Assembly: GCF_001571265.1 (NCBI RefSeq)
Contig: NZ_BCTL01000020.1
Span: 58,703 to 122,702, forward strand
Source: Cedecea neteri NBRC 105707 = ATCC 33855
GTDB lineage: Bacteria; Pseudomonadota; Gammaproteobacteria; Enterobacterales; Enterobacteriaceae
DNA length: 64,000 bases
Reading direction: 5' to 3'
Shown: in pieces, positions 3,036 through 46,093 of the stretch
Layout of the letters: each line of letters begins with the position of its first letter
Numbering within the stretch: the stretch's first letter is position 1
Made by a program: the position numbers and the translations under genes
Notes under the pieces: generated by a model
The model's database searches: none
What the model was told of the DNA's origin: nothing
What the model saw: the letters and a program-made list of their open reading frames with translations, nothing else

Positions 3036-4817
3036 GTGCGATTATTTGCTCAATTAAGCTGGTACTTCACCCGCGAGTGGCGACGCTATCTCGGCGCGGT
3101 GGCATTGCTTATTATCATCGCCATTCTGCAGCTCGTGCCGCCGAAAGTGGTGGGCGTGATTGTGGATGGCGTAGTGCAGCAGCGTCTTTCTTCTCAGCAG
3201 GTGCTGATGTGGGTTGGCGTGATGCTGATTATTGCCGTGGTGGTTTATCTGGTGCGCTACGTCTGGCGCGTCCTGCTGTTTGGGGCGTCTTACCAGCTTG
3301 CGGTTGAGCTGCGGGAAAATTATTACCGCCAGCTAAGCCGGCACCATCCTGAGTTTTATCTCCGCCACCGCACCGGTGACCTGATGGCGCGCGCCACTAA
3401 CGATGTCGATCGCGTGGTATTTGCCGCGGGGGAAGGGGTGCTAACGCTGGTGGATTCGCTGGTCATGGGCCTGGCGGTGCTAATCGTCATGTCCACCCAA
3501 ATCAGCTGGCAGCTTACTCTGCTGGCGCTGTTGCCGATGCCGATTATGGCCGTGGTGATCAAACGCGACGGTGCCCGTTTGCATGACCGCTTCAAAGTAG
3601 CTCAGGCGGCATTCTCGGCCTTAAACGATCGCACGCAGGAAAGCATGACCAGCATCCGTATGATCAAGGCGTTTGGCCTTGAAGATCGGCAGTCGGCGCT
3701 GTTTGCCGCAGAAGCCCAGGATGCAGGGGCGAAAAACATGCGAGTCGCTCGCATTGATGCGCGTTTCGATCCCACCATTTATGTGGCGATTGGGGCAGCA
3801 AACCTGTTAGCCATCGGCGGCGGAAGCTGGATGGTTATCGACGGCACGCTTACCCTCGGGCAGCTCACCAGCTTTGTGATGTATCTTGGCCTGATGATTT
3901 GGCCGATGCTTGCGCTGGCCTGGATGTTCAATATTGTTGAGCGTGGAAGTGCGGCCTACAGCCGTATCCGTGCGATGCTGGAAGAAGAGCCGGGCGTGGT
4001 TGACGGTGATAAAACGCTGCCGGACGGGCGGGCTGAACTGGTGGCCTCGATTCGCCAGTTCCACTACCCACAGACTGCTCAGCCCACGCTGCAGAACGTC
4101 AACTTCACCCTTAAGCCTGGGGAAATGCTTGGCCTGTGCGGGCCAACGGGCTCGGGGAAAAGCACCATTCTCTCTCTGATTCAGCGTCATTTCGACGTGG
4201 AAGAGGGGGATATTCGCTACCACGATCTCCCGCTCACGGCGCTGAAAATTGACGGCTGGAGAAGCCGCCTGGCTATCGTTAACCAGACGCCATTCCTGTT
4301 CTCTGACACCGTTGCCAGCAACATTGCGCTGGGTAAGCCGGGCGCCACGCAGGAGGAGATTGAGCATGTCGCTCGTCTGGCAAGCGTCCATGAAGATATC
4401 CTGCGCTTGCCTCAAGGGTACGACACCGAAGTAGGCGAGCGCGGCGTGATGCTTTCCGGCGGGCAAAAACAGCGCATTTCCATTGCCAGGGCGCTGCTGC
4501 TGGACGCCGAGATCCTGATTCTGGACGATGCACTTTCCGCCGTTGACGGCCGTACCGAGCACCAGATTCTGCATAACCTGCGCCAGTGGGGCGAACACCG
4601 CACGGTCATTATCAGCGCGCACCGCCTGTCTGCGCTAACGGAAGCCAGCGAAATTCTGGTGATGCAGCACGGGCATATCGCCCAACGCGGCAGCCACGAT
4701 AACCTGGCGTCTCAGCCGGGTTGGTACCGTGATATGTACCGTTATCAGCAGCTGGAGGCCGCGCTGGACGAGGCCCCGGAGCAGGAAGAAGTCAGGGAGA
4801 GCGCCAATGAGTCGTAA
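3036..4817 (+). CDS. mdlA: Multidrug ABC transporter half-subunit MdlA
   Basis: 593 residues: six-helix ABC transmembrane domain (about 1-310) followed by a nucleotide-binding domain. Walker [10 protein letters not shown] lies near residue 370, the signature LSGGQKQR near 473 and Walker [13 protein letters not shown] near 493. The start is the GTG at 3036 (MRLFAQLSW), as in E. coli. It is translationally coupled to mdlB, whose ATG overlaps its end. MdlA and MdlB are expected to form a heterodimeric inner-membrane exporter of lipophilic compounds; the natural substrate is not known. The Walker B is followed by Asp rather than Glu (LDDA), as expected for the degenerate site of a heterodimer. 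Confidence 0.95.
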
Positions 4818-34642: not shown

Positions 34643-34900
34643 ATGAGTATCAATGCCGTGGTACGTGCCCGGATTGACCCTGCTATTCGTGATGAGGCTA
34701 CAGAAGTATTGGCTCAGTTTGGCATGACCATAAGTGACGTTATGCGGATGACCTTAGCGTATGTCGCTAAAGAGCGCGCATTGCCTTTCGAAATGCGCCT
34801 GAATGCAACGACTATCGAGACGATTGAAAAGGCCGAGGCGGGAATAGAGGTTCATCGCGCTAGTGATGCCAAAGATTTGTTCGACCAACTGGGGATGTAA
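34643..34900 (+). CDS. dinJ: RelB/DinJ-family antitoxin
   Basis: 85 residues. The N-terminal ribbon-helix-helix (INAVVRARIDPAIRDEATEV, FGMTISDVMRMTLAYVA) is typical of DinJ, and the C-terminal tail (EVHRASDAKDLFDQLGM) is the toxin-neutralising part. The toxin gene follows by 3 bp. GGAGGA lies upstream of the ATG. The pair sits between CRISPR array 1 and cas1, with lower GC content than the chromosomal genes around the island. Confidence 0.9.
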   Translation: MSINAVVRARIDPAIRDEATEVLAQFGMTISDVMRMTLAYVAKERALPFEMRLNATTIETIEKAEAGIEVHRASDAKDLFDQLGM

Positions 34901-34903
34901 TTC

Positions 34904-35185
34904 ATGCCCCAAAGGGAGATCAGTTACACCGGACAGTTTAAGCGTGATTTGAGGTTGGCCCAAAAAAGAGGATGCGATATCCCAAAGCTGCAGGGCATCA
35001 TGATGCAGATGATGAATGACCAGTTCCCATTACCTGCAGCCTTGTTAGACCATCCTCTGACTGGGAATTACAAAAAACACAGGGAATTGCATGTTGAGCC
35101 TGACTGGCTCCTGATTTATAAGATTTCCAATACTGAACTGCAGTTTGTCAGAACAGGCTCACATTCGGATTTATTCAAAAGCTAA
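34904..35185 (+). CDS. yafQ: YafQ-family mRNA interferase toxin
   Basis: 93 residues of the RelE/ParE fold. All E. coli YafQ catalytic residues are present at the same numbers: H50, H63, D67, W68, H87 and F91 (DHPLTG, LHVEPDW, RTGSHSDLF). YafQ cleaves mRNA on the ribosome at AAA codons. It should be active and needs the upstream DinJ. Position inside the CRISPR-Cas island suggests it may help keep the island. Confidence 0.92.
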   Translation: MPQREISYTGQFKRDLRLAQKRGCDIPKLQGIMMQMMNDQFPLPAALLDHPLTGNYKKHRELHVEPDWLLIYKISNTELQFVRTGSHSDLFKS

Positions 35186-35231: not shown

Positions 35232-35259
35232 CTTCACTGCCGTACAGGCAACTTAGAAA
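35232..35259 (+). repeat. Solo degenerate I-F CRISPR repeat before cas1
   Basis: A 28-nt copy of the array repeat with two changes (first G to C, and G to A at position 20, CAGGCAACTTAGAAA). It has an intact loop and 5' handle but the stem is weakened by the G-to-A change. There is no second repeat within 100 bp downstream. It is on the same strand as array 1 and is separated from its decayed end by the DinJ-YafQ genes. Confidence 0.85.
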
Positions 35260-35462: not shown

Positions 35463-36449
35463 ATGGATGTAATCTTTATGTTAATGCCTTCTGATTTAAA
35501 AACTATTCTGCATTCCAAACGAGCTAATATTTATTACCTTCAATACTGCCGGGTGCTGGTTAACGGCGGGCGAGTGGAATATGTCACGGATGAGGGAAAG
35601 TCTTCGCTCTACTGGAATATCCCCATCGCGAATACCACGGTGGTGATGCTGGGTACCGGAACTTCAGTCACGCAGGCTGCAATGCGAGAGTTTGCAAGGG
35701 CTGGCGTATTAGTTGGCTTCTGCGGCAGTGACGGCACACCTCTTTATTCTGGTAACGAAGTTGATATTGACGTGTCATGGATCACCCCGCAAAGTGAATA
35801 TCGCCCTACAGAGTATCTACAGGACTGGGTGTCATTTTGGTTTGATGAAGATAAACGGTTGATGGCCGCTAAGCGTTTTCAACATATTCGTTTGCAGCAA
35901 ATAGAGCGTAACTGGTCTGGGGCCAGAATACTGCGAGAAACACGTTTTAATCCTCAAGCCACAATATTAAAAGATAAACTAGAGCGTTTTCATATCGGAA
36001 TAGAAAATGCGGCCAGCCATAATGAGTTGATGCTGCAGGAGGCGCAGCTCACCAAAGCCCTTTATAAATTAGCCAGTGATGCGGTGCAGTACGGTGACTT
36101 TACGCGTTCTAAACGTGGCGGCGGAACCGACAGCGCAAACCGTTTATTAGATCAAGGTAACTATTTGGCATACGGGCTCGCTGCGGTAGCAACCTGGGTG
36201 ACGGGAATACCGCATGGCCTCGCGGTGCTACACGGCAAGACGCGGCGCGGTGGGCTGGTGTTTGACCTGGCTGATTTGATCAAAGATGCACTGATATTGC
36301 CGCAGGCCTTTATTGCCGCCATGGAAGGCGAGGACAACCAAACTTTTCGCCAGCGCTGTATTACCGGGTTTCAGCAGTCTGCCGCGCTGGATTTAATGAT
36401 TGAAACGCTCCAGGAAACAGCTGCTGCATTAAAAGGCGAGCAAAAATGA
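35463..36449 (+). CDS. cas1: CRISPR-associated endonuclease Cas1, type I-F
   Basis: 328 residues. The C-terminal helical domain holds the metal-binding His and Asp in GIPHGLAVLHG and FDLADLIKDALI; the family Glu lies earlier, and the N-terminal beta domain begins SDLKTILHSKRANIYYLQYC. It integrates new spacers with the Cas2 part of the following fusion. Its stop overlaps the cas2-3 ATG (ATGA), so the two are coupled. Start codons at 35463, 35478 and 35484 are all possible, and none has a clear ribosome-binding site. Confidence 0.97.
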   Translation: MDVIFMLMPSDLKTILHSKRANIYYLQYCRVLVNGGRVEYVTDEGKSSLYWNIPIANTTVVMLGTGTSVTQAAMREFARAGVLVGFCGSDGTPLYSGNEVDIDVSWITPQSEYRPTEYLQDWVSFWFDEDKRLMAAKRFQHIRLQQIERNWSGARILRETRFNPQATILKDKLERFHIGIENAASHNELMLQEAQLTKALYKLASDAVQYGDFTRSKRGGGTDSANRLLDQGNYLAYGLAAVATWVTGIPHGLAVLHGKTRRGGLVFDLADLIKDALILPQAFIAAMEGEDNQTFRQRCITGFQQSAALDLMIETLQETAAALKGEQK

Positions 36450-39400
36450 ACGTCCTGATTGTCTCGCAGTGCAGCAAAAAAGCGCGAGAGCAAAGCTGTC
36501 AGATCCTCGACCAGTTTGCGGAACGCAAAGGGGACGGCTGCTGGCAAACGATGATTACGCAGCAAGGGCTGGATACGCTAAGGCGTTTACTTCGTAAGAG
36601 CGCCCGCCGAAATACGGCCGTGGCCTGCCATTGGATTAAGAAAAGCGGGCAAACGGAACTGCTGTGGATTGTCGGCAATCTTCGCCGGTTTAACGTCCAC
36701 GGCTCGGTGCCAACTAATCGTACTTCGAGAGATATTCTGCGCAGTAAGCATGAATCTGGCTGGCGCAGCATCGAGTCCATTGCCGTGCTGGCCGCCATTG
36801 CCGGTCTGTTTCATGATTTTGGCAAAGCGGGGGCTTTATTCCAGAAAGGATTAAAAAACGCCTCAGCCCGCGGCTACCAGCCGTTTCGCCACGAGTGGTT
36901 ATCCGTACGGCTGTTTCAGGCGCTGGTCGGGCAGCAAACCGATGAACAATGGCTGGCGCAGCTCGGCGAACTGAAACCCGCTGATGAAAAAACGTTGCTG
37001 GCGCAGCTTTACAAAGATACGCAGGAACGAACGGAAAGCCCGTTTATTAGTTTGCCTCCGCTGGCGCAGGTTGTGGCATGGCTAATTCTGTCCCATCACC
37101 GTTTACCACAATACTTAAGGAAAGATGCTCCCCCCAGCTTTGAACAGGATAACTGGCTGACGGCGCAGCTTAATGCCAACTGGAACTCATGTAATCACCT
37201 CAAGGATGGCTGGTCAGCCCGGGATTTTAAAGACGTCTGGCGCTTTCCTGGGGGAACGCCTTTGCAGAGCAGCACCTGGCGCGAGAAGGCCCGGCAGTTG
37301 GCAAAGCGGGCCGCGCACGCGGTCTCTGTTTATGAATTTGGGAGCCTGGATCAGGTTTTCACCTTACATATGGCGCGCCTGTCGCTCATGCTTGCCGATC
37401 ATTTTTACTCTTCGCAGATGCCTCTCACTGCGTGGCAGGATGCGGCTTATGCCGCCTGGGCGAACACCGAACGGGCAACGGGGCAGCTCAAGCAGAAGCT
37501 GGATGAGCACAATATTGGCGTCGCACATCATGCGTTTTTATTAGGCAGAACGCTCCCCGTGCTGCGCGAGCATTTACCGGCGATTACCCGGCATAAGGGT
37601 TTTCGTGAACGGGCGAAACATCCTCGTTTTCACTGGCAAAACCGCGCGTGGGATGTGGCCCAAGGGCTGCGCGAACGAGCTGATAGGCAGGGTTTTTTCG
37701 GTATCAACATGGCTTCAACAGGCTGTGGCAAGACCTTCGCTAACGCACGAATTATGTATGCCTTATCTAATGAGGATAAAGGCTGCCGCTTTACCGTCGC
37801 ACTGGGGCTGCGCACCCTGACGCTACAGACCGGAGATGCGCTTCGGGAAAAACTGAATCTGGGTGAGGACGATCTTGCCGTGTTAATCGGTTCTTCCGCC
37901 GTGCGTGAGCTGCATGACGATAAAAATAAAGAAGAAGATGATATCGACCGCAGCAGCGCTTCAGAAGATGCGTTATTCGAAGGGCATCAGTATGTTCATT
38001 ATGACGGCGTGATTAACCAGGGGCCGCTGCGTCAGCTGCTGGATCGCGATCCAAAGCTCAGCAAGCTTATCAACGCCCCGGTGCTGGTCTCGACAATCGA
38101 CCATATTATGCCTGCGACAGAAGGAACGCGCGGTGGGAAGCAAATTGCGCCCATGCTGCGCCTGCTCACCAGCGACCTGGTGCTTGATGAACCCGATGAT
38201 TTTGATATTGCCGATCAGCATGCGCTTTGCCGCCTGGTGAACTGGGCGGGAATGCTGGGCAGCCGGGTGCTGCTCTCATCCGCGACGCTGCCGCCGTCGT
38301 TGGTATTGGCGCTTTACAGTGCTTATCTCTCCGGGCGAAAAGCCTTCCAGCAGGCCTGTGGGGAACCGGGGCAGCCGCTAAATGTCTGCTGTGCCTGGTT
38401 TGATGAGGATGAATCCTGCCCCGCTGAGTTTGGGTCTGCGCAGTCTTTCTATGAGCACCATAATCAGTTCGTGCAGCGTCGGGCTAAAAGGCTGGCGGTG
38501 AAGCCGGTTATCCGGGAAGCGAAACTGCTTCCCGTTGAGGCGGCCGAGGGGGAAACAACGTCGCTGGCTGCCACGCTGCAGCGCGAAATTCTTAGTTTGC
38601 ATACCAGCCACCATCAAACGCACCCCAACGGAAAGACGGCCTCACTGGGGCTGATGAGAATGGCGAATATTAATCCTCTGGTGGCAACGGCCAGGGCGCT
38701 GATGTCGCTCCCTTCGCCGGAAGGATATTGTATTCATTACTGTATTTATCACAGCCAGCACCCGCTGCTGTTTCGTTCGCATATTGAAAAACGCCTGGAC
38801 GCGGCGTTTTCTCGCCATGATGAACAGTCGCTGTGGCGGCAGCCCGAAATTCAGAAAGCCATTGAGCATAATCCTGCGATGAATCACATATTTGTCGTGC
38901 TGGGGACTTCTGTCATTGAGGTTGGCCGGGATTGGGATGCGGACTGGGGCATTGCAGAGCCCAGCTCAATGCGCTCGATTATCCAGTTTGCCGGCCGCAT
39001 TCAACGGCACCGGCAGCAAAAGCCGAACAGCGCCAATCTTCTGATCCTCAGTAAGAATATGCGTGCACTGCGTCCGGGTGCCCAAAAAGCGGTCTACTGC
39101 AAGCCCGGCTTTGAAAACGAGACGTACAGGCTGAGCAGCCACGATCTCGCCGATATCCTTCGCCCTGAGCAATATCAATTTGTAAATTCGGTGCCGCGCA
39201 TTCTTGAGCCCGCCGAAAATTATCGCAAAACGAAGCCTTACCATAATCTCAGCACCCTTGAGCACGGGCGCAGCTATGGCGATCTGCTGGGAGCCATAGA
39301 GGCTAATAAACGGCCTCCGGCCGCAGCGTGGTGGCGCAAAAAAATTAGCTGGAGCAGCGAGCTGCAAAGGTTGACGCCATTCAGGCAGTCTCAGTCCGAA

Positions 39401-39700
39401 GAGCAGCTGTTTTTGTTTATGGCAGAAGAAGAGGACGAACCGACTTTCTGTGTGCTGGATGATAAGGGCTGGAAGGAGGCGGGGGGAATCGACCCCGTTG
39501 AGCTGCCGCTTGCAGAGGGGGTTTGTTCCTGGCTGGAAAGTGATTATGCCACGGCGATGCTCGAGCTGGCGGAGCGTAAAAGCATGGAACTTCAACAGGT
39601 CAGCCGCTTCTATGGCGAAATTAATTTACGGGTTAGTGAGCCGGGTTCACCCACCTGGCTTTATCACCCTTTATTGGGCGTGTTTCGCGCCCTCGATTGA
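36446..39700 (+). CDS. cas3: Cas2-Cas3 fusion, type I-F helicase-nuclease
   Basis: 1084 residues. A Cas2 domain (about 1-90, MNVLIVSQCSKKAREQSCQI) is followed by the HD nuclease (HDFGKAG, His near residue 123) and a superfamily 2 helicase with Walker A STGCGKT near 424 and DExD-like LDEPDDFD near 579. Motif VI is FAGRIQRHRQ near 853. The fusion is the hallmark of type I-F. It is recruited by the Csy complex to degrade DNA, and through Cas2 joins Cas1 in adaptation. The stop codon lies inside a perfect hairpin (39686-39707). The 400-bp gap to csy1 is unusual. Confidence 0.98.
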   Translation: MNVLIVSQCSKKAREQSCQILDQFAERKGDGCWQTMITQQGLDTLRRLLRKSARRNTAVACHWIKKSGQTELLWIVGNLRRFNVHGSVPTNRTSRDILRSKHESGWRSIESIAVLAAIAGLFHDFGKAGALFQKGLKNASARGYQPFRHEWLSVRLFQALVGQQTDEQWLAQLGELKPADEKTLLAQLYKDTQERTESPFISLPPLAQVVAWLILSHHRLPQYLRKDAPPSFEQDNWLTAQLNANWNSCNHLKDGWSARDFKDVWRFPGGTPLQSSTWREKARQLAKRAAHAVSVYEFGSLDQVFTLHMARLSLMLADHFYSSQMPLTAWQDAAYAAWANTERATGQLKQKLDEHNIGVAHHAFLLGRTLPVLREHLPAITRHKGFRERAKHPRFHWQNRAWDVAQGLRERADRQGFFGINMASTGCGKTFANARIMYALSNEDKGCRFTVALGLRTLTLQTGDALREKLNLGEDDLAVLIGSSAVRELHDDKNKEEDDIDRSSASEDALFEGHQYVHYDGVINQGPLRQLLDRDPKLSKLINAPVLVSTIDHIMPATEGTRGGKQIAPMLRLLTSDLVLDEPDDFDIADQHALCRLVNWAGMLGSRVLLSSATLPPSLVLALYSAYLSGRKAFQQACGEPGQPLNVCCAWFDEDESCPAEFGSAQSFYEHHNQFVQRRAKRLAVKPVIREAKLLPVEAAEGETTSLAATLQREILSLHTSHHQTHPNGKTASLGLMRMANINPLVATARALMSLPSPEGYCIHYCIYHSQHPLLFRSHIEKRLDAAFSRHDEQSLWRQPEIQKAIEHNPAMNHIFVVLGTSVIEVGRDWDADWGIAEPSSMRSIIQFAGRIQRHRQQKPNSANLLILSKNMRALRPGAQKAVYCKPGFENETYRLSSHDLADILRPEQYQFVNSVPRILEPAENYRKTKPYHNLSTLEHGRSYGDLLGAIEANKRPPAAAWWRKKISWSSELQRLTPFRQSQSEEQLFLFMAEEEDEPTFCVLDDKGWKEAGGIDPVELPLAEGVCSWLESDYATAMLELAERKSMELQQVSRFYGEINLRVSEPGSPTWLYHPLLGVFRALD

Positions 39701-39707
39701 GGGCGCG
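39686..39707. terminator. Perfect hairpin over the cas2-3 stop codon
   Basis: CGCGCCCTC-GATT-GAGGGCGCG, a 9-bp GC-rich stem containing the cas2-3 TGA. There is no T run on either side, so it is at most a weak terminator. It directly abuts the last half-repeat of the minus-strand mini-CRISPR, where it could end or stabilise that RNA. Confidence 0.5.
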
Positions 39708-39785
39708 AGCTGCCTGTACGGCAGTTAACTAGCTACAAGCCACACGGGTTATATATATTTCTAAGCTGCCTGTACGGCAGTTGCT
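39708..39785 (-). CRISPR. Two-repeat mini-CRISPR on the opposite strand, CreA/CreR-like guide RNA gene
   Basis: Read on the minus strand: repeat one (39785-39758) has an intact stem and 3' handle CAGGCAGCTTAGAAA but its first four bases are changed. A 28-nt spacer follows (39757-39730). Repeat two (39729-39708) is intact over 21 of 22 bases, GTTAACTGCCGTACAGGCAG, but its 3' handle is lost. Thus exactly the parts needed to make one crRNA survive: upstream handle and downstream Cas6f stem. The spacer is 4 nt shorter than those in the arrays. It matches a site 75 bp to its right (39833-39860). Weak -10-like TATATT lies at 39812-39807 on the minus strand. Confidence 0.85.
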
Positions 39786-39830
39786 GAAGTTTAAGGGGGT
39801 TAGTCAAATATAACAAGATTGGATTTTAAT

Positions 39831-39860
39831 CCTATATATAATCAGTATGACTTGTAATTT
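39831..39860 (+). promoter_or_regulatory. CC-PAM protospacer matched by the mini-CRISPR spacer, overlapping a TATAAT box
   Basis: CC at 39831-39832 followed by TATATATAATCAGTATGACT and eight more bases. Against the 28-nt spacer 21 positions match. Positions 1-9 are perfect; mismatches fall at 10, 12, 15, 18, 25, 26 and 28, of which 12 and 18 are positions a I-F crRNA flips out. A TATAAT hexamer is at 39837-39842, and a TTGACG hexamer at 39865-39870 lies just after the site. Csy complex binding here without cutting would block a promoter for the 49-codon ORF and csy1-4. The promoter itself is not proven. Confidence 0.75.
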
Positions 39861-39924
39861 TTTGTTGACGTGAATTAATTTTACGCGCATTCTCTGGCAT
39901 ATGTAAACAAACCTGGATACTGAG

Positions 39925-40074
39925 ATGAGAGATTTTAGGATTCTTTCATGTGCTTTTTTACTATTTATGACTACAGCGATGCTGCCTCGACCTGAGTCCG
40001 TCGCTATTAGCCAGAACTTTAATGGCCCTGGAGTAAAGGTTGTTAACTCATTAATAAGTTTGCATTTAAGGTGA
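39925..40074 (+). CDS. 49-codon ORF between the mini-CRISPR and csy1; candidate CreT-like toxin
   Basis: ATG at 39925 then MRDFRILSCAFLLFMTTAML, ending SLISLHLR and TGA. Codon 2 is AGA, codon 5 AGG and codon 49 AGG, all rare arginine codons, with other rare ones (CTA, ATA). The first 20 residues are hydrophobic, signal-anchor-like. Known CreT toxins are small RNAs whose short reading frames sequester rare arginine tRNA. The ribosome-binding site is weak (GGATACTGAG). It ends 25 bp before csy1. It may instead be a non-coding leader; no homologue is recognised. Confidence 0.4.
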   Translation: MRDFRILSCAFLLFMTTAMLPRPESVAISQNFNGPGVKVVNSLISLHLR

Positions 40075-40099
40075 TTTTATCGTAACCGGAGGGATGATG

Positions 40100-41416
40100 A
40101 TGTCTACACGGATAAGTGCATTTGTTGTTGAATACATCGCAGGACGACGGCAAACCAAACTCGATGCCTTCAACAAAGATGCCGCTAAGCGCCTGGCGGC
40201 AGATAGCGCGCTAGAAAGTGAAATATTGCAGGAGCGCCGCGAGCTTGAGTTACGCTATGCGCCCGGTAACTGGCTAACGGATGCGGCAAAGCGGGCGGGG
40301 CAAATCAGCCTAGTCACGCACGCCGCTAAATTCACCCACGGTGATTCCAAAAGCAGCAGTATTTTTACCGAAACCGGTGCTGTAGAAGGTTACCTTTCAA
40401 CTTCAACGTTGAATAACCCTGCGGCTGATGCAGTGGGCAATGCTGCGGCGCTGGATATAGCGAAGTTGCTGCAAACCGAAGTGGACGGCGATTCTCTGCT
40501 GGCCTGCCTGAAGCGCAACGATGACTCACCGCTGGCGGCGCTGGCTGAAAGTCCACAGCAGCTTGCCGAGTGGCTGGAAGGCTTTTCGCGAGCGCTGACG
40601 ATAAAAGATCCCGTTTCCCACAAACTGGCGAAGCAGATATATTTCCCCGTCGCCGGTGGCTACCACCTGTTGAGCCCGCTGTTTTCCAGCTCTCTGGCTC
40701 AGGCCATGCACCAAAAAATGGTTGCTCACCGCTTTAGCGAAGAGGCGAAAGCCGCCTGGAAGGCGCGCGGTAAAAATGAGTGGCATCCGGAAACTCTGGT
40801 GATGTTTCCCAACACTGCCGTGGTCAATTTTGGCGGTACAAAGCCGCAAAATATTTCTTTATTAAACAGTGTTCGAGGTGGGCGTACATTGCTGCTTCCT
40901 GCCCAGCCCCCCGCCTGGGAAGTTCAGGATAAAAAGCCGCTTGGCATGATCACCATCTTTGCTCCCGGTGCCTTTGAACGTGTGACAAGGCATGCCCGTC
41001 GACAGCTGATTCATCTGTTGGCGAGCACCGGAGAAACAAAAAACGTTCGCATTCGTCGGCAGCGCGACCGCTACATCGATGAGATTATCGATCTGCTCTT
41101 CAATATTGCCGCAGGTATTCAGCGTGAAGAGTGGGCGGGTTGGACTCAGGACTCAGAATGTAAATTATCTGAACATCAGCGGCTGTGGCTCGATCCTTAT
41201 CGGGCTGTTACCGACGAAGCTTTCCGTGCCACGCGCGAGAAGGGTGACTGGCAGATGGATGTGGCGAATGATTTTGCCCGCTGGCTGAACGGAAATCTTA
41301 AGGCCGGAGGGATAGGCGCTGAGCTGACAGAGCAAAAAGAGTGGCGAACAAAACCGCTGTTCCGCCAGCGCCTGCGCGAGATGGAACGCGCTTTCAGGAG
41401 ATATCGCCATGAGTAA
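40100..41416 (+). CDS. csy1: Csy1 (Cas8f), large subunit of the type I-F Csy complex
   Basis: 438 residues from the third of three consecutive ATGs (40094, 40097, 40100); GGAGG at 40088-40092 is best spaced for 40100. It begins [20 protein letters not shown] and includes the family region [20 protein letters not shown] (about 96-115) and [20 protein letters not shown] (about 245-265). With Csy2 it forms the tail of the complex and recognises the CC PAM. It is the first gene of csy1-4 and overlaps csy2 by 8 bp. Confidence 0.97.
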
Positions 41417-42362
41417 GCTTATCGTTTTACATCGCCTGAAGGTTGAAAATGCCAACGCCATTGCGGGGCTGACCTGGGGCTTTCCGGCAATAACTCACTT
41501 TCTTGGTTACACGCATGCGCTTTCCAGAAAGCTTGAGGCCAGCCATGGGTTAACGCTGAGCGGGTGCGGCGTGGTTTGCCACAGCCATCAGGTTCATGCC
41601 CATACCTCCGGGCGCGACTACCAGTTTGCGCTGACCCGTAACCCGCTGACTCGCGAAGGAAAAACGGCCGCTTTTAATGAAGAAGGCCGTATGCACATGA
41701 CGGTCTCTCTGCTGTTGGAATGCCACGGCGAGATTGCCAACGGCGATGCGGGATTCCGGGCTTTGGAAGAGCACATCGAAACGCTGTGCCAGACGCAAAA
41801 GCTGGCCGGTGGATCCATCACGGGGATGCGTAACGTCCGCGTTCATGCGCTGACTGCTGCTAAGGACATATGGCGAGAGGTTCGCTATAGCCTGATGCCG
41901 GGCTTTGCTCTTCTCGACCGCTCGTCCTTGCTGGAGGCTCACTTCCAGCAGCTGCAACAGCAGCAGCCAGACGCGGACAAGCTTGATGCCTGGCTCGATT
42001 TCGCGGCGCTCAAAATGAAATCTGACGAATCAGGAAACTGGCAATACCAGCCAAAACCAGGGGCGGGTGGCTACCTGGTTCCGCTGATGACCGGCTGGCA
42101 GCGAATATCTCCTCTTTATGACGCCGGTACAGTCGCCAATGTGCGTGATGCCGAGTCGCCGTTCTGCTTTGCCGAAGCGGTTTACGGCGTGGGGGAATGG
42201 CGTGGTATGCACAGGATTGCGACGCCTGAAGACGCATTCTGGCGCTATCGCACCACGGAAACCGGCTACTACTGCTGCGGCCCGCTCGTTCAAGAAGATG
42301 ATGATCTGGACACCGATGCAGAGCTGGAAGCAGATGAACCTATTATTTTTGATGACATTTAA
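41409..42362 (+). CDS. csy2: Csy2 (Cas5f)
   Basis: 317 residues, a RAMP-type protein ([20 protein letters not shown] at the N-terminus, and [20 protein letters not shown] near 55). It holds the crRNA 5' handle (CUUAGAAA) beside Csy1 at the PAM end of the complex. Its start overlaps the csy1 stop and it ends 11 bp before csy3. The C-terminal tail is acidic ([16 protein letters not shown]). Confidence 0.97.
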
Positions 42363-42373
42363 GGGACTATATC

Positions 42374-43369
42374 ATGGCGAAAAATACGACGATTAAAACG
42401 GCTTCTGTACTGGCCTTTGAGCGCAAACTGGCGAACTCTGACGCACTGTTATTTGCTGGCAGCTGGCAGGGTAACAGCTGGCAGCCGGTAAAAGTTCAGG
42501 AGAAAGCCGTGCGGGGCACCATCTCCAACCGCTTAAAAAATGCGGTAGCCAGCGATCCTGCAAAGCTGGACGCCGAAATCCAGAAAGCCAACCTGCAGCG
42601 TGTGGATGTGTCTGCATTACCTGCGGATGCCGATACCTTAAAAATGGCCTTCAGCCTCCGCATTTTGGGCAACCTGGCCACGCCGTCGGTTTGTAACGAT
42701 CGCGCTTATCAGGCTGAGCTTGAAGACGTGATCAATGGCTATATCGCGGAAAACGGTTTTGCTGAACTGGCGCTGCGTTACGCCTCAAACCTGGCCAATG
42801 GCCGTTTCCTGTGGCGTAACCGTGTGGGTGCAGAGCAGGTGAGAGTGGTCGTTAAAGGGAGTAAAACCTGGGAATTTAACGCCCATGATTACTCGCTGCG
42901 TGACTTTGGCAACAAGGACGAATCGCTGAACGCGCTGGCGGCAGAAATCGAACTCGGCCTGAAGGGTGAAAGCTTTGTGCTGCTGAATGTTGAAGCCTAT
43001 GTCCGCCTGGGGCAGGGGCAAGAAGTGTTCCCTTCTCAGGAACTGGTGCTGGATAGCAACAGCAGCAAGAGCAAAGTGCTGTATCAGGTGGACGGCGTCG
43101 CGGCTCTGCACTCCCAAAAGGTGGGCAACGCGCTCAGAACTATTGATACCTGGCACCCGCAGGTAGAAGCGCTCGGCGCTATTGCGGTAGAACCGTACGG
43201 CTCAGTCACCAGCCGTGGTGTGGCCTGCCGTCAGCCAAAAGAGAAAATGGACTTCTACACTCTGCTCGATAACTGGGTGACAAAAGGTGACAAGCCGTCG
43301 GTTGAACAGCAGCACTTTGTGATGGCCGTGCTTATCCGTGGTGGCGTATTCGGCGAGAAAGCAGACTAA
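42374..43369 (+). CDS. csy3: Csy3 (Cas7f), backbone subunit
   Basis: 331 residues, Cas7f RAMP fold ([40 protein letters not shown]). Six copies coat the crRNA spacer and force every sixth base out of the duplex, which matters for reading the mini-CRISPR mismatches in this locus. It lies between csy2 and csy4 in one transcript. GGGACTATATC precedes the ATG at 42374. Confidence 0.97.
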
Positions 43370-43379
43370 GGGCGGGCCT

Positions 43380-43934
43380 ATGGACAGCTATCAGGATATC
43401 CGGGTTCTTCCGGACCCAGAGTTTAAGTCAACGATGCTGCTCTCAGCCTTATTCGCCAAACTGCATCGGGCGCTTGCGGCTCGCGAAACAGGTGACATCG
43501 GCGTTAGTTTTCCTGGGCACAGCAAAACGCCGGGCGAGGTGCTGCGTTTGCACGGTGAACGCGCGGCACTTGAGGCTCTGGAGGCAACTGGCTGGCGCGC
43601 AGGCCTGAACGACTATTGCTTCAGCTCAGGCGTGCAAGCCGTTCCGGAAGTTAAGGGCTGGCGATGCGTTTCCCGTGTGCAGGTCAAAAGCAGCGCAGAC
43701 AGGCTGCTGCGCCGCTCCGTTCGCAAGGGGTGGATCACCGAGGAAGAAGCACAGATGCGTATTTTAAATCAGCAGGATCAAAGCTCCGATCTGCCTTTTA
43801 TACAGATGAAGAGTTTATCCTCTAAGCAGGCATTTCGGTTATTCATCCTGCACGGGGAGCTATTGCCCTCTCCGGTAGAGGGCAAATTTAGCCTCTACGG
43901 TTTAAGTGCCAAAGCGACCATTCCCTGGTTTTAA
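43380..43934 (+). CDS. csy4: Csy4 (Cas6f), crRNA-processing endoribonuclease
   Basis: 184 residues from the ATG at 43380, 10 bp after csy3. The catalytic histidine is H29 (FAKLHRAL), as in the P. aeruginosa enzyme. The Arg-rich helix that reads the repeat stem is SADRLLRRSVRKGW, and the C-terminal motif is FSLYGLSAKATIPWF with the active-site Tyr. It cuts at the 3' base of the CTGCC/GGCAG stem and stays bound to it. An in-frame ATG at 43338 inside csy3 was rejected. Confidence 0.97.
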   Translation: MDSYQDIRVLPDPEFKSTMLLSALFAKLHRALAARETGDIGVSFPGHSKTPGEVLRLHGERAALEALEATGWRAGLNDYCFSSGVQAVPEVKGWRCVSRVQVKSSADRLLRRSVRKGWITEEEAQMRILNQQDQSSDLPFIQMKSLSSKQAFRLFILHGELLPSPVEGKFSLYGLSAKATIPWF

Positions 43935-44024: not shown

Positions 44025-44052
44025 ATTCACTGCTGTGAGGATAGTTTAGAAA
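44025..44052 (+). repeat. Degenerate CRISPR repeat between csy4 and hipB
   Basis: ATTCACTGCTGTGAGGATAG then TTTAGAAA, matching 20 of 28 positions of the array repeat. The last seven bases of the handle are perfect, while the Cas6f stem is destroyed. A further GTTCAC at 44088, within a GTTCACCC/GGGGAAC hairpin, lies 35 nt on and could be a second decayed repeat. Probably a relic of an older array. Confidence 0.6.
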
Positions 44053-44166
44053 CCGCCGTAGATCGTTGTGTAGTAAAGCGTAGCAATGTTCACCCTTTGA
44101 ATGTAGGGGAACATCGTGAGTGCTCATGTGTTTTATTTGCATCGTATTCATTACAATTTTTGATTT

Positions 44167-44205
44167 TAAGCCCTATTATGTAACGTATAGGTTACTGGGG
44201 GCTTA
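44167..44205. promoter_or_regulatory. Operator/promoter region of hipBA
   Basis: Nested inverted repeats: outer TAAGCCC (44167-44173) with GGGCTTA (44199-44205), inner GTAAC (44180-44184) with GTTAC (44191-44195). They end 1 bp before the hipB start. HipB-type antitoxins bind such palindromes to autorepress. Confidence 0.6.
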
Positions 44206-44206
44206 A

Positions 44207-44590
44207 ATGAAAATCACTATTACCATGTCTGATTTAGCGATAGCTAAAGAACTTTATGAACGTCTCGAAGGCCTAAGGAAAGCAAAAGGGTTGTCTCAAG
44301 ATGCTTTGGTAGAGAACCTTGGTATTAGCAGGCCGACCTATGCAAGGCTTAAAAGAGGAACCTGTAGTCTTGGAACGTTTATCGGTGTGCTGCGTGAACT
44401 CAATCTACTTGAGAGTTTGGAGGCTCTGGTCCCGGCTCCTACTGTGCGCCCCTCTGAAATAATCAAGGCCAAAACGGGCAGAAAAAGAAATCACCGGCAG
44501 TCTATTCTTAAGACTTCTGGCGCAAAGACGGAATATCGTTCAGTGAAAGATATGCTTGCTAATCGTAAAAAAAATAAGGTTACGGAATGA
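44207..44590 (+). CDS. hipB: HipB-like helix-turn-helix antitoxin
   Basis: 127 residues. XRE-type helix-turn-helix at about 19-66 (RLEGLRKAKGLSQDALVENL, GISRPTYARLKRGT), then a longer, basic tail (KTGRKRNHRQ, ANRKKNKVTE) than E. coli HipB (88 residues). The stop overlaps the hipA start by 4 bp (ATGA). It should neutralise and co-repress with HipA. AT-rich compared with the chromosomal genes, like the rest of the pair. Confidence 0.85.
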   Translation: MKITITMSDLAIAKELYERLEGLRKAKGLSQDALVENLGISRPTYARLKRGTCSLGTFIGVLRELNLLESLEALVPAPTVRPSEIIKAKTGRKRNHRQSILKTSGAKTEYRSVKDMLANRKKNKVTE

Positions 44591-45894
44591 TAGCGAATTC
44601 TTGTGAGGTTCTGTTCGATGGAATTCTTATAGGGTATCTGGCATACACCGATGATAGCGGGATGGCTACGTTTGAATACACCAAAGAATGGCAAAAAGAT
44701 GGATTTAGCCTGTCGCCGTTATACATGCCCTTGAGCGATGCCACTTTCACCTTTCCTGCACTTTCGTGGGACACGTATCGTGGTTTACCTGCTGTATTTG
44801 CAGACTCTTTACCTGATGATTTTGGTAATGCCTTGATCAATGCCTGGTTGGCCGCTGAAGGTATGGATAAATCACAGTTTCAAGCAATAGATCGGTTGTT
44901 ATACACGGGCACTCGTGGAATGGGGGCGTTAGAGTACCAGCCAACAACTGGCCCTCAAGATGTTCAAAGTGAACCCGTATTGATCACCGAACTTATAAGC
45001 ATCGCCCAAAAAGTACTGGACGCGCGAGATGAACTTCAATTAACCGATCGTGAAGAATCTTCCATGGCTAAGCTGCTCCAGATTGGTACCTCTGCAGGTG
45101 GTGCAAGGGCAAAAGCCGTGGTGGCAATAAATGAAAGTAGAACTGAGATTCGCTCTGGTCAGGTTGAGGCTCCGGAGGGGTTTCAGCATTATCTGCTGAA
45201 GTTTGATGGTGTGGTTGAACACAGGTCTGATACGCAAACCTTTGGTGATCCCAGAGGATATGGTGTGATGGAGTATGTTTACTACCTGATGGCCACTCAG
45301 GCTGGCATAAAAATGTCGCATTGCGAATTACTGAGGGAAAAACAGAGTAACAGAGCTCACTTCATGACTGAGAGGTTCGATCGGTTTGGTGGCCAAAAAT
45401 ATCATGTGCTTAGTTTGTGCGGAATAGCCCATGCTGATTTCAGGAAACCTGGAATATACAGCTATGAAGAAATGCTGTCCGTTGCGCGACAACTAGAGCT
45501 TTCTTATAAAGAGCAGGAGCAACTTTACCGGCGAATGGTCTTCAATGTCATTGCGCGAAACCATGATGACCATACAAAAAACTGGTCCTTCATGGTTAAT
45601 GATGATTTTAAATGGACGTTAGCTCCCGCTTTTGATGTTGCATGGAGCTACAAAGAAAATTCTCCGTGGGTGAATACCCATCAATTATCAATAGCCGGGA
45701 AACGTGATAATTTTCATATAGATGACATGTTGTCTGTGGCTAAAAATATCACTGGTCTTCGTCCTTCCAAAGCCAGAAGTATCATTGAAGAAACAATCGC
45801 TGTCGTGTCTCAGTGGCGTGAGTTAGCTGAATCCGAAGGGGTTCCTGAGACTTTGCGTGATGAAGTATGGAACTCACTTCGTCTTAAATGGTAA
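44587..45894 (+). CDS. hipA: HipA-family serine/threonine kinase toxin
   Basis: 435 residues, close to E. coli HipA (440). Ser-containing P-loop-like QIGTSAGGARAKAV near 160, catalytic region FNVIARNHDDHTKNWSFM near 320 (catalytic Asp, Asn), and metal-binding Asp in APAFDVAWSY. E. coli HipA phosphorylates glutamyl-tRNA synthetase and causes persistence; the target of this homologue is not known. It lies between the csy operon and CRISPR array 2. Confidence 0.92.
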   Translation: MIANSCEVLFDGILIGYLAYTDDSGMATFEYTKEWQKDGFSLSPLYMPLSDATFTFPALSWDTYRGLPAVFADSLPDDFGNALINAWLAAEGMDKSQFQAIDRLLYTGTRGMGALEYQPTTGPQDVQSEPVLITELISIAQKVLDARDELQLTDREESSMAKLLQIGTSAGGARAKAVVAINESRTEIRSGQVEAPEGFQHYLLKFDGVVEHRSDTQTFGDPRGYGVMEYVYYLMATQAGIKMSHCELLREKQSNRAHFMTERFDRFGGQKYHVLSLCGIAHADFRKPGIYSYEEMLSVARQLELSYKEQEQLYRRMVFNVIARNHDDHTKNWSFMVNDDFKWTLAPAFDVAWSYKENSPWVNTHQLSIAGKRDNFHIDDMLSVAKNITGLRPSKARSIIEETIAVVSQWRELAESEGVPETLRDEVWNSLRLKW

Positions 45895-46002
45895 TGTTTA
45901 CGATGCAAGATATGCTTAAAATGCCATTTTTGTATCGTATTCGATGCGGGTTGTTGCGTAGTGGTAATGCATTAAATGCCAGAACTCAAATGTTAAAGCA
46001 TT

Positions 46003-46093
46003 CGCTGTGAAATGCTCTTGTTTACTGTCGCACAGGCAGAGTTGAAGTAGTCGCGATGAGCATTCTTAGGAGATTTCACCGCCGCATAGGTTA
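46003..46093 (+). repeat. Decayed leader-repeat-spacer-repeat before array 2
   Basis: GCTGTGAAATGCTCTTG at about 46004-46020 copies the leader end next to the first repeats of both arrays. Then a degenerate repeat (46020-46047, 21 of 28 positions, GTTTACTGTCGCACAGGCAG), a 26-nt spacer-like stretch, and a second broken repeat from 46074 (TTCACCGCCGCATAGG, 13 of 16). No target of the spacer was found nearby. It is a relic of an older array start or of another mini-CRISPR. Confidence 0.6.

Follow-up and report, generated by a model that had tools for sequence, protein, structure and literature searches.

The window, by which we mean the whole 64,000-nucleotide stretch of DNA analysed here, carries a complete type I-F CRISPR-Cas system consisting of an array, cas1, cas2-3, csy1-csy4 and a second array, laid out as follows.

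From 34178: first array
35463-36449, plus strand: cas1 (NCBIfam TIGR03637, above cut-off in a profile search)
36446-39700, plus strand: cas2-3 (NCBIfam TIGR02562, above cut-off)
40094-43934, plus strand: csy1, csy2, csy3 and csy4, the Csy complex genes, 3' of the target listed below (NCBIfam TIGR02564, TIGR02565, TIGR02566 and TIGR02563, above cut-off)
From 46368: second array

The gap between cas2-3 and csy1 measures 393 nt in the window. The first-pass annotation had recognised in it a mini-CRISPR with a spacer directed at the adjacent promoter region, and we assign the following features to it.

39685-39708, minus strand: hairpin directly past Psi-R2 and across the cas2-3 stop, a possible 3' end of the guide transcript (-21.5 kcal/mol, z -5.8)
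39702-39729, minus strand: Psi-R2, second degenerate I-F repeat (21/28 to the array repeat; Rfam CRISPR-DR4)
39730-39757, minus strand: spacer of 28 nt, the predicted guide
39758-39785, minus strand: Psi-R1, first degenerate I-F repeat (24/28 to the array repeat; Rfam CRISPR-DR4)
39788-39816, minus strand: predicted mini-CRISPR promoter adjoining Psi-R1 (TTGTTA 39816-39811, N17, TAAACT 39793-39788; second-best minus-strand candidate)
39831-39832, plus strand: CC, the I-F PAM of the target
39833-39860, plus strand: target (protospacer), 21/28 matches to the spacer
39865-39893, plus strand: predicted promoter TTGACG-17-CATTCT, 4 nt past the target and 31 nt before the ORF (best plus-strand candidate; weak -10)
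39925-40074, plus strand: hydrophobic ORF of 49 aa, candidate toxin or leader peptide in a creT-like position

Re-reading of the sequence and scripts both bore out the claim of two array-type repeats on the minus strand around a 28-nt spacer; the location given for the element stood, while its start did not, as the element spans 39702-39860 and so reaches slightly beyond the 39708 first proposed. Psi-R1 has kept its stem and the 8-nt handle CTTAGAAA together with one of the five leading bases, whereas Psi-R2 has kept its stem and four of the five leading bases and is degenerate in its 3' part (2/8 of the handle). Since each repeat is degenerate in the opposite part and both five-pair stems are kept, one crRNA is expected. 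Both matches to Rfam CRISPR-DR4 fall below the curated cut-off of 35 bits, that at Psi-R1 narrowly (39758-39781, minus strand, 34.1 bits, E 6.5e-6) and that at Psi-R2 more clearly (39708-39724, minus strand, 21.8 bits, E 0.04). Two degenerate repeats with intact processing stems, enclosing a spacer and standing beside cognate cas genes, are what characterises the creA of CreTA elements, and all of these are present. An ordinary short array was considered and rejected: the window's real arrays are built of 60-nt units, and the near-identical repeats, spacing of about 32 nt and leader of an array are not seen in the mini-CRISPR, with its repeats at 24 and 21 of 28 to the array repeat and its 28-nt spacer.

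Between the spacer and a CC-flanked site lying 75 bp from it, 21 of 28 positions agree, with 1-9 unbroken and mismatches at 10, 12, 15, 18, 25, 26 and 28. Our scripts reproduced these values, which had been read by eye before, and equally the placing of two of the seven mismatches (12 and 18) at flipped-out positions. In type I effectors, every sixth guide base is flipped out and unpaired. No instance of 21 matches was obtained from 5000 dinucleotide-shuffled regions (best 19) or from 5000 shuffled spacers (best 18), the runner-up among the 8745 CC-flanked sites of the 64 kb has 16 matches, and a pattern search of the 5.2-Mb genome (CC plus the matching positions, with at most three mismatches) returned the target and the spacer itself only. 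The earlier caution that the seed is AT-rich was fair, but the shuffles and the genome pattern search argue that AT-richness does not explain the match. A target on the minus strand, where it lies in relatives, was also tried and rejected for the window, the best CC-flanked match there being 9/28.

The plus-strand promoter predicted just past the target was scored with hand-entered weights, and it is absent from the list of a stricter promoter scan. No terminator-like site was found between 39650 and 40120. The small ORF stops 19 nt short of csy1 and ranks in the top 2.6% by hydropathy among the 507 window ORFs of 25-60 aa. In terms of known elements, a PAM-flanked site located at the promoter, here a predicted one, of the gene to be repressed is a partial match to the spacer, as in CreTA, and the guide has limited complementarity to the system's own cas promoter, as in CreR, the target lying 5' of a predicted promoter that reads into csy1. 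Two papers bear on transcription across the corresponding gap. In E. coli LF82, which carries the module, cas2/3 and csy1 (330 bp apart) are described as not co-transcribed, with csy1 yet expressed (PMC3506596), and a csy promoter should therefore lie where the guide binds. For P. atrosepticum, the operon is described as transcribed from cas1, so that csy need not depend on a gap promoter; the same study raised the idea of another promoter within the gap, 365 bp long in that species (PMC4499141).

A search for csy1 gave matches in 59 of 392 family genomes. Within the window's genus, the 7 further genomes searched had no csy1, so that the window's own lineage is not traceable by covariation. 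Relatives were drawn from a scan of one genome per species, using the best 80 of 136 loci, of which 76 had a readable gap (34 below 60 nt, 6 of 60-149 nt and 36 of at least 150 nt). A minus-strand repeat pair at a fixed threshold occurs in 29 of these 76 readable cas2-3/csy1 gaps, and a looser threshold adds two, in Pantoea (L076) and Alishewanella (L104). The carriers belong to Escherichia, Citrobacter, Leclercia, Cedecea, Enterobacter, Serratia, Pectobacterium, Brenneria, Dickeya, Erwinia, Mixta, Yersinia, Rahnella, Photorhabdus, Photobacterium and Aliivibrio, with one further genome named Stenoxybacter. The Alishewanella gap has a mini-CRISPR and a matching site, but an unlike ORF of 86 aa without a Pfam match. 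A Pluralibacter MAG (L061, 3212-3795) has a gap without a repeat pair and, on the opposite strand, a CcdA/CcdB pair (PF07362, PF01845).

The repeats of the relatives are conserved in the parts that processing needs. Across 33 modules the stem of Psi-R1 retains 155 of 165 pairs and shows 20 both-side changes, and that of Psi-R2 retains all 165; L118 (a copy of L116), L097, L127 and L131 had been dropped beforehand, and other loop lengths were permitted where fewer than four pairs formed, L039 and L119 failing at Psi-R1 even so. In an analysis of the flanks (31 modules; L118, L097, L131, L057, L063 and L064 dropped, near copies L069 and L127 retained), a TAnnnT hexamer adjoins Psi-R1 in 29, where 18% would be expected. 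Should this hexamer serve as the guide promoter's -10, transcription would begin within Psi-R1, which would account for the freedom of the leading bases of that repeat. The best minus-strand candidate of the window is a different one, TTTACA-18-TAAAAT from 39907, which the stricter scan finds too. A hairpin past Psi-R2 with z of -3 or lower is present in 24 of the 31 modules, its sequences differing widely between distant loci; in the window it has no T run and is thus no standard terminator, and the terminator scan lists none.

Covariation of spacer and target in relatives had been proposed as a check on the guide function, and when run it came out favourably, in that the spacers differ between genera, match CC-flanked sites in their own gaps and have their mismatches in a phase of six. 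Each spacer's best CC-flanked match in its own gap was compared with those of 2000 shuffled spacers, p<0.01 counting as a pass; 37 spacers entered, or 32 after removal of near copies (L118, the copy of L116, among those dropped). On this test 26 of the 32 non-redundant spacers have a matching site in the gap they come from; the other six, which fall short, are the first spacer of L043, L046 (0.011), L054 (0.010), L087, L096 and L116. For 23 of the 26, the own gap scores first among all 26 gaps. The targets lie on the minus strand in 25 of the 26 pairs, that of the window being the sole plus-strand target, and start 55-80 nt from Psi-R1 in 19 of those 25 (47 nt in the window). Ten of 28 modules, that of the window among them, have the -35 box of their best-scoring promoter 0-4 nt past the target; with the promoter as predicted, the strand flip of the window leaves the target still against the -35 and turns the PAM to the other side. 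In L043 (Stenoxybacter acetivorans; csy1 match starting at 4001), the gap holds three repeats and two spacers, only the second of which matches (21/27), as though an older element had gained a 60-nt unit at Psi-R1.

The distribution of mismatches in the 26 pairs provides a signature of the use to which they are put. Within positions 1-18, mismatches occupy 46 of 72 cells at positions 6, 12 and 18, against 45 of 381 elsewhere, which by phase amounts to a mismatch fraction of 0.64 against 0.04-0.16 in the five other phases. By position, there are 13/26 at 6, 20/26 at 12 and 13/20 at 18, while positions 1-5 and 7 together have one, and the rate is higher at 6n in all 26 modules, the window among them. 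The test was limited to pairs that had passed the match test, in which they were scored by matches and unbroken start and not by phase; since the pairs have ancestry in common, their Fisher p of 1e-19 should not be read as a strict probability. A second set of ten pairs, selected for a visible repeat pair and a CC-flanked match and including two Acinetobacter plasmids as positive controls, gave 20/28 at 6n against 13/145; it left out three of 11 loci with printed candidates (L148, L149, L156) and nine of 11 of another gap list. For the CreA of Acinetobacter sp. WCHA45, the text available places the unpaired bases at the 6th, 11th and 18th positions (PMC10097628). As a pattern in sequences, the covariation indicates selective retention of those base pairs on which a Csy complex relies, with a signal that fades beyond about position 13-17. 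It also bears on the simple inverted repeat that had been put forward as an alternative, which did not hold up, since it predicts no PAM, no phase of six and no compensatory stem changes, all of which the relatives show.

The small ORF has counterparts in many of these gaps. In all, 24 ORFs were chosen by eye for a hydrophobic stretch; of a list of 32 modules, 11 are outside this set (L039, L054, L059, L086, L087, L096, L098, L105, L116, L118 and L119), three of which (L039, L054, L059) have shorter hydrophobic ORFs. The 24 ORFs are 27-58 aa long and end 19-87 nt before the csy1 match in 23 modules and 393 nt before it in L080; all fall within the top 3.4% of hydropathy of the 507 window ORFs of 25-60 aa, having been picked beforehand as hydrophobic-looking. 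In the relatives, a conserved small ORF stands between promoter and csy1, which bears on the absence of a toxin gene as a trait of CreR. Motifs near the C-terminus of the peptides can be aligned between genera, leave-one-out HMMs pick up 14 of 19 family members (E<0.01), missing the window ORF, L084, L092, L095 and the Escherichia ORF, and among 11,679 ORFs of all loci the clear matches to the family HMM are those of this gap and one ORF in L081. The latter runs into a repeat-less gap of 147 nt (E 2.6e-9) and is likely a relic of a lost module. A weaker match outside the gap is a hydrophobic window ORF of 28 aa at 44120-44206, the best match to the small-peptide HMM among 831 window ORFs (E 3.9e-5). 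Close pairs have dN/dS of 0.21-0.32 in Pectobacterium and Brenneria and 0.07-0.39 in Escherichia; taken with the leave-one-out HMMs, this makes a translated peptide family likely in the relatives. In Escherichia, conservation extends beyond the ORF and the reading frame shifts between lineages, which would favour an RNA toxin of type VIII there, whereas the dN/dS of the relatives favours a protein. Eight family members have no Pfam match at cut-off, and the named homologues of the Pectobacterium peptide are three hypothetical proteins, all of Pectobacterium. The window's own ORF is not recognised by the relatives' family HMM (E 2.8), and a toxic role for it is therefore put no higher than likely; its claim rests on position, hydropathy and a length of 49 aa that it has in common with four relatives.

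Whether the module holds its host to the Csy genes was approached through losses. Of 5426 E. coli genomes, 239 match csy1-4, 237 match csy1-2 and 237 the gap, the two sets of 237 having been compared by count. One of the two genomes without csy1-2, that of E. coli SZQ1 (L141), has lost the end of cas2-3, the gap, csy1 and csy2 altogether, and has kept two annotated arrays. E. coli ST80 (L124) keeps its cas genes and module beside arrays that are down to 4 and 3 repeats. E. coli APEC O1 points the other way with regard to addiction, as its module is kept although csy2 is annotated with an internal stop. In Pectobacterium, csy1 is broken in two of nine genomes without the module and in none of five with it, numbers too small to count.

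The best reading of these observations is a type I-F element of the CreTA/CreR type, through which Csy represses its own operon together with a candidate toxin. A guide RNA would start at the promoter adjoining Psi-R1, and Csy4 would cut the two intact stems, as their sequence and covariation suggest, to release one crRNA consisting of 5' CUUAGAAA followed by the mini-CRISPR spacer. The Csy-crRNA complex would pair with the target mainly at 1-5, 7-11 and about 13-17, a length and phase suggested by the covariation of the relatives. Cutting by Cas2/3 generally needs a complete R-loop. With pairing that weakens beyond these segments, Csy would presumably bind without the full R-loop that recruits Cas2/3 and leave the chromosome uncut. 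By analogy with type I systems that have been studied, Csy seated against the -35 box would exclude RNA polymerase and thereby make the operon self-repressing. The promoter would open if Csy disappeared, was inhibited by an anti-CRISPR or was titrated by a large number of crRNAs. An open promoter would yield more Csy, in the manner of CreR, and the small membrane peptide, which might serve as a CreT-like alarm or toxin. We consider it probable that the mini-CRISPR RNA leads Csy to the target and blocks, without cutting, the predicted promoter of the hydrophobic ORF and csy1-csy4; we hold with high confidence that its Csy-guided part is right, and judge the toxicity of the small peptide to be slightly better than an even proposition. 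Several observations count against the reading as a whole, namely the target strand unlike that of the relatives, the weak promoter of the window, the ORF missed by the HMM, the six failed spacers, the 34 of 76 relatives with a gap below 60 nt, the csy2 stop of APEC O1 and the transcription of P. atrosepticum from cas1.

The most serious competing account, although we regard it as rather unlikely, is that the guide and Csy repress csy1-4 in the manner of CreR, with the small ORF encoding no toxin but a leader peptide or regulator that does no harm. The closeness of the ORF to csy1 with no terminator-like site found around it would suit such a role, as would the modules in which no clear hydrophobic ORF was picked, the module kept beside the annotated csy2 stop of APEC O1, and the CreR-type autorepression reported, in the text available, for types I-B, I-E and V-A (PMC13131331). 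Against it, the peptide family is conserved at the protein level and recognised almost solely in this gap, a proven toxin is described from the same gap of Acinetobacter (PMC10097628, from the text available), and the csy1-csy2 deletion of E. coli described above, the one of two that was inspected, removed the gap as well. That Acinetobacter toxin raises a further possibility, which we think improbable, namely a CreTA in which the transcript and not the peptide is toxic: the CreT elements of Acinetobacter and of haloarchaea are described there as RNA toxins for which the small ORF's peptide is irrelevant (PMC10097628), and the conservation beyond the ORF and the shifting frames in Escherichia would agree with this. 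The low dN/dS of the Pectobacterium and Brenneria pairs and the C-terminal motifs common to several genera instead indicate a selected protein, and the I-E CreT of C. rodentium is reported, in the portion available, to need translation (PMC12055562).

A chance inverted repeat or the remnant of a decayed array, with no guide function, would account for the AT-rich seed and the deviating target strand, and the window does contain further degenerate repeats (44025, 46020) as well as a near-perfect repeat standing alone (35232), none with a good CC-flanked match nearby. We consider this very improbable given the outcome of the shuffles, the phase-of-six mismatches in every one of the 26 modules including the window, the stem changes on both sides and the experimental activity reported for the same gap in Acinetobacter (PMC10097628, from the text available).

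A comparison with described systems places the element, in our best reading, closest to the I-F CreTA of Acinetobacter, where the cas3-csy1 gap has been studied and creT is described as a 33-bp mini-ORF that acts as a bactericidal RNA. According to the available text, the elements of Acinetobacter sp. WCHA45, LoGeW2-3 and ANC3789 occupy the same gap, and a divergent creA with Psi-R1 and Psi-R2 and a CC-flanked partial target 5' of a small ORF are common to both (PMC10097628); our scripts applied to the LoGeW2-3 locus give 21/31 matches with the first mismatch at position 6. In contrast to these elements, the cargo here is a hydrophobic ORF of 49 aa, with a protein family of 27-58 aa under purifying selection in the relatives, and the target of the window is on the other strand. 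CreR (Liu et al. 2023), as summarised in the available parts of two reviews, is known from types I-B, I-E and V-A, generally without a toxin gene (PMC12737573, PMC13131331). It likewise relies on a guide that partly matches a cas promoter, and effector autorepression is predicted here as well, whereas the present element is of type I-F and has a candidate cargo gene between promoter and csy1. The I-E CreTA of Citrobacter rodentium is also enterobacterial, sits in the gap before the effector genes and has a PAM-flanked partial match at the promoter; likened by description, it represses an ORF that must be translated, and it differs in its type, I-E, and in its 96-bp ORF (PMC12055562, text available). 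CrePA (Shu et al. 2024, as reviewed in PMC12737573) resembles the proposed element in a CRISPR-repressed protein toxin with a crRNA-like antitoxin, but the toxin there is described as a KilA-N domain protein that halts cell division, and the peptides here have no Pfam match at cut-off.

More tentatively, with somewhat less than even confidence, one could speculate that the I-F cas2-3/csy1 gap is a docking site for addiction cargo, in which the Csy-repressed promoter would serve csy1-4 as well and a single guide would act as both CreR and CreA, the cargo being exchanged from lineage to lineage: in Acinetobacter an RNA toxin, the membrane-peptide family in Enterobacterales including E. coli, the unrelated ORF of 86 aa in Alishewanella, and CcdAB instead in one Pluralibacter genome. 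The membrane peptide would in that case be a CRISPR-repressed, membrane-acting toxin.

The existence of I-F CreTA in Acinetobacter is already known (PMC10097628). New are the wide enterobacterial spread of such modules, which extends to E. coli, an apparently translated membrane-peptide cargo and the plus-strand target of the window; among the best 20 matches per list of a literature search that covered few subscription papers, no paper on such an enterobacterial I-F mini-CRISPR or on a membrane-peptide CreT was found, and single cases may be contained in the supplementary CreTA list of PMC10097628. If the reading is true, many Enterobacterales I-F systems, those of E. coli, Pectobacterium, Serratia, Dickeya and Brenneria among them, bear a hidden guard that couples Cas expression to Cas function and may punish Cas loss or inhibition, and csy deletions may be non-neutral controls. 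It would also account for the 365-bp gap with a suspected promoter in P. atrosepticum (PMC4499141), and likewise for csy1 forming a transcription unit of its own in E. coli LF82 (PMC3506596). The phase-of-six covariation itself provides a simple sequence test for working self-targeting guides, and maps by way of natural variation which guide bases are important for binding without cutting.

The window contains some further repeats and genes in the vicinity of the system. A degenerate repeat lies 3' of csy4 at 44025-44052 (plus strand, 20/28 to the array repeat), and together with the 28-aa ORF at 44120-44206 it may be a decayed second creTA-like unit. The second array's leader end and first repeat recur in degenerate form at 45995-46048, about 350 bp upstream of the real ones. 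Near these odd repeats (44025, 46020) and the solitary one at 35232, no convincing CC-flanked target was found. That solitary near-perfect repeat is 5' of cas1, and between it and the first array there is a toxin-antitoxin pair, RelB/YafQ (34643-35185). Finally, an HTH gene and a HipA-family gene (PF07804, PF13657) at 44207-45894, between csy4 and the second array, form a toxin-antitoxin-like pair within the CRISPR locus.
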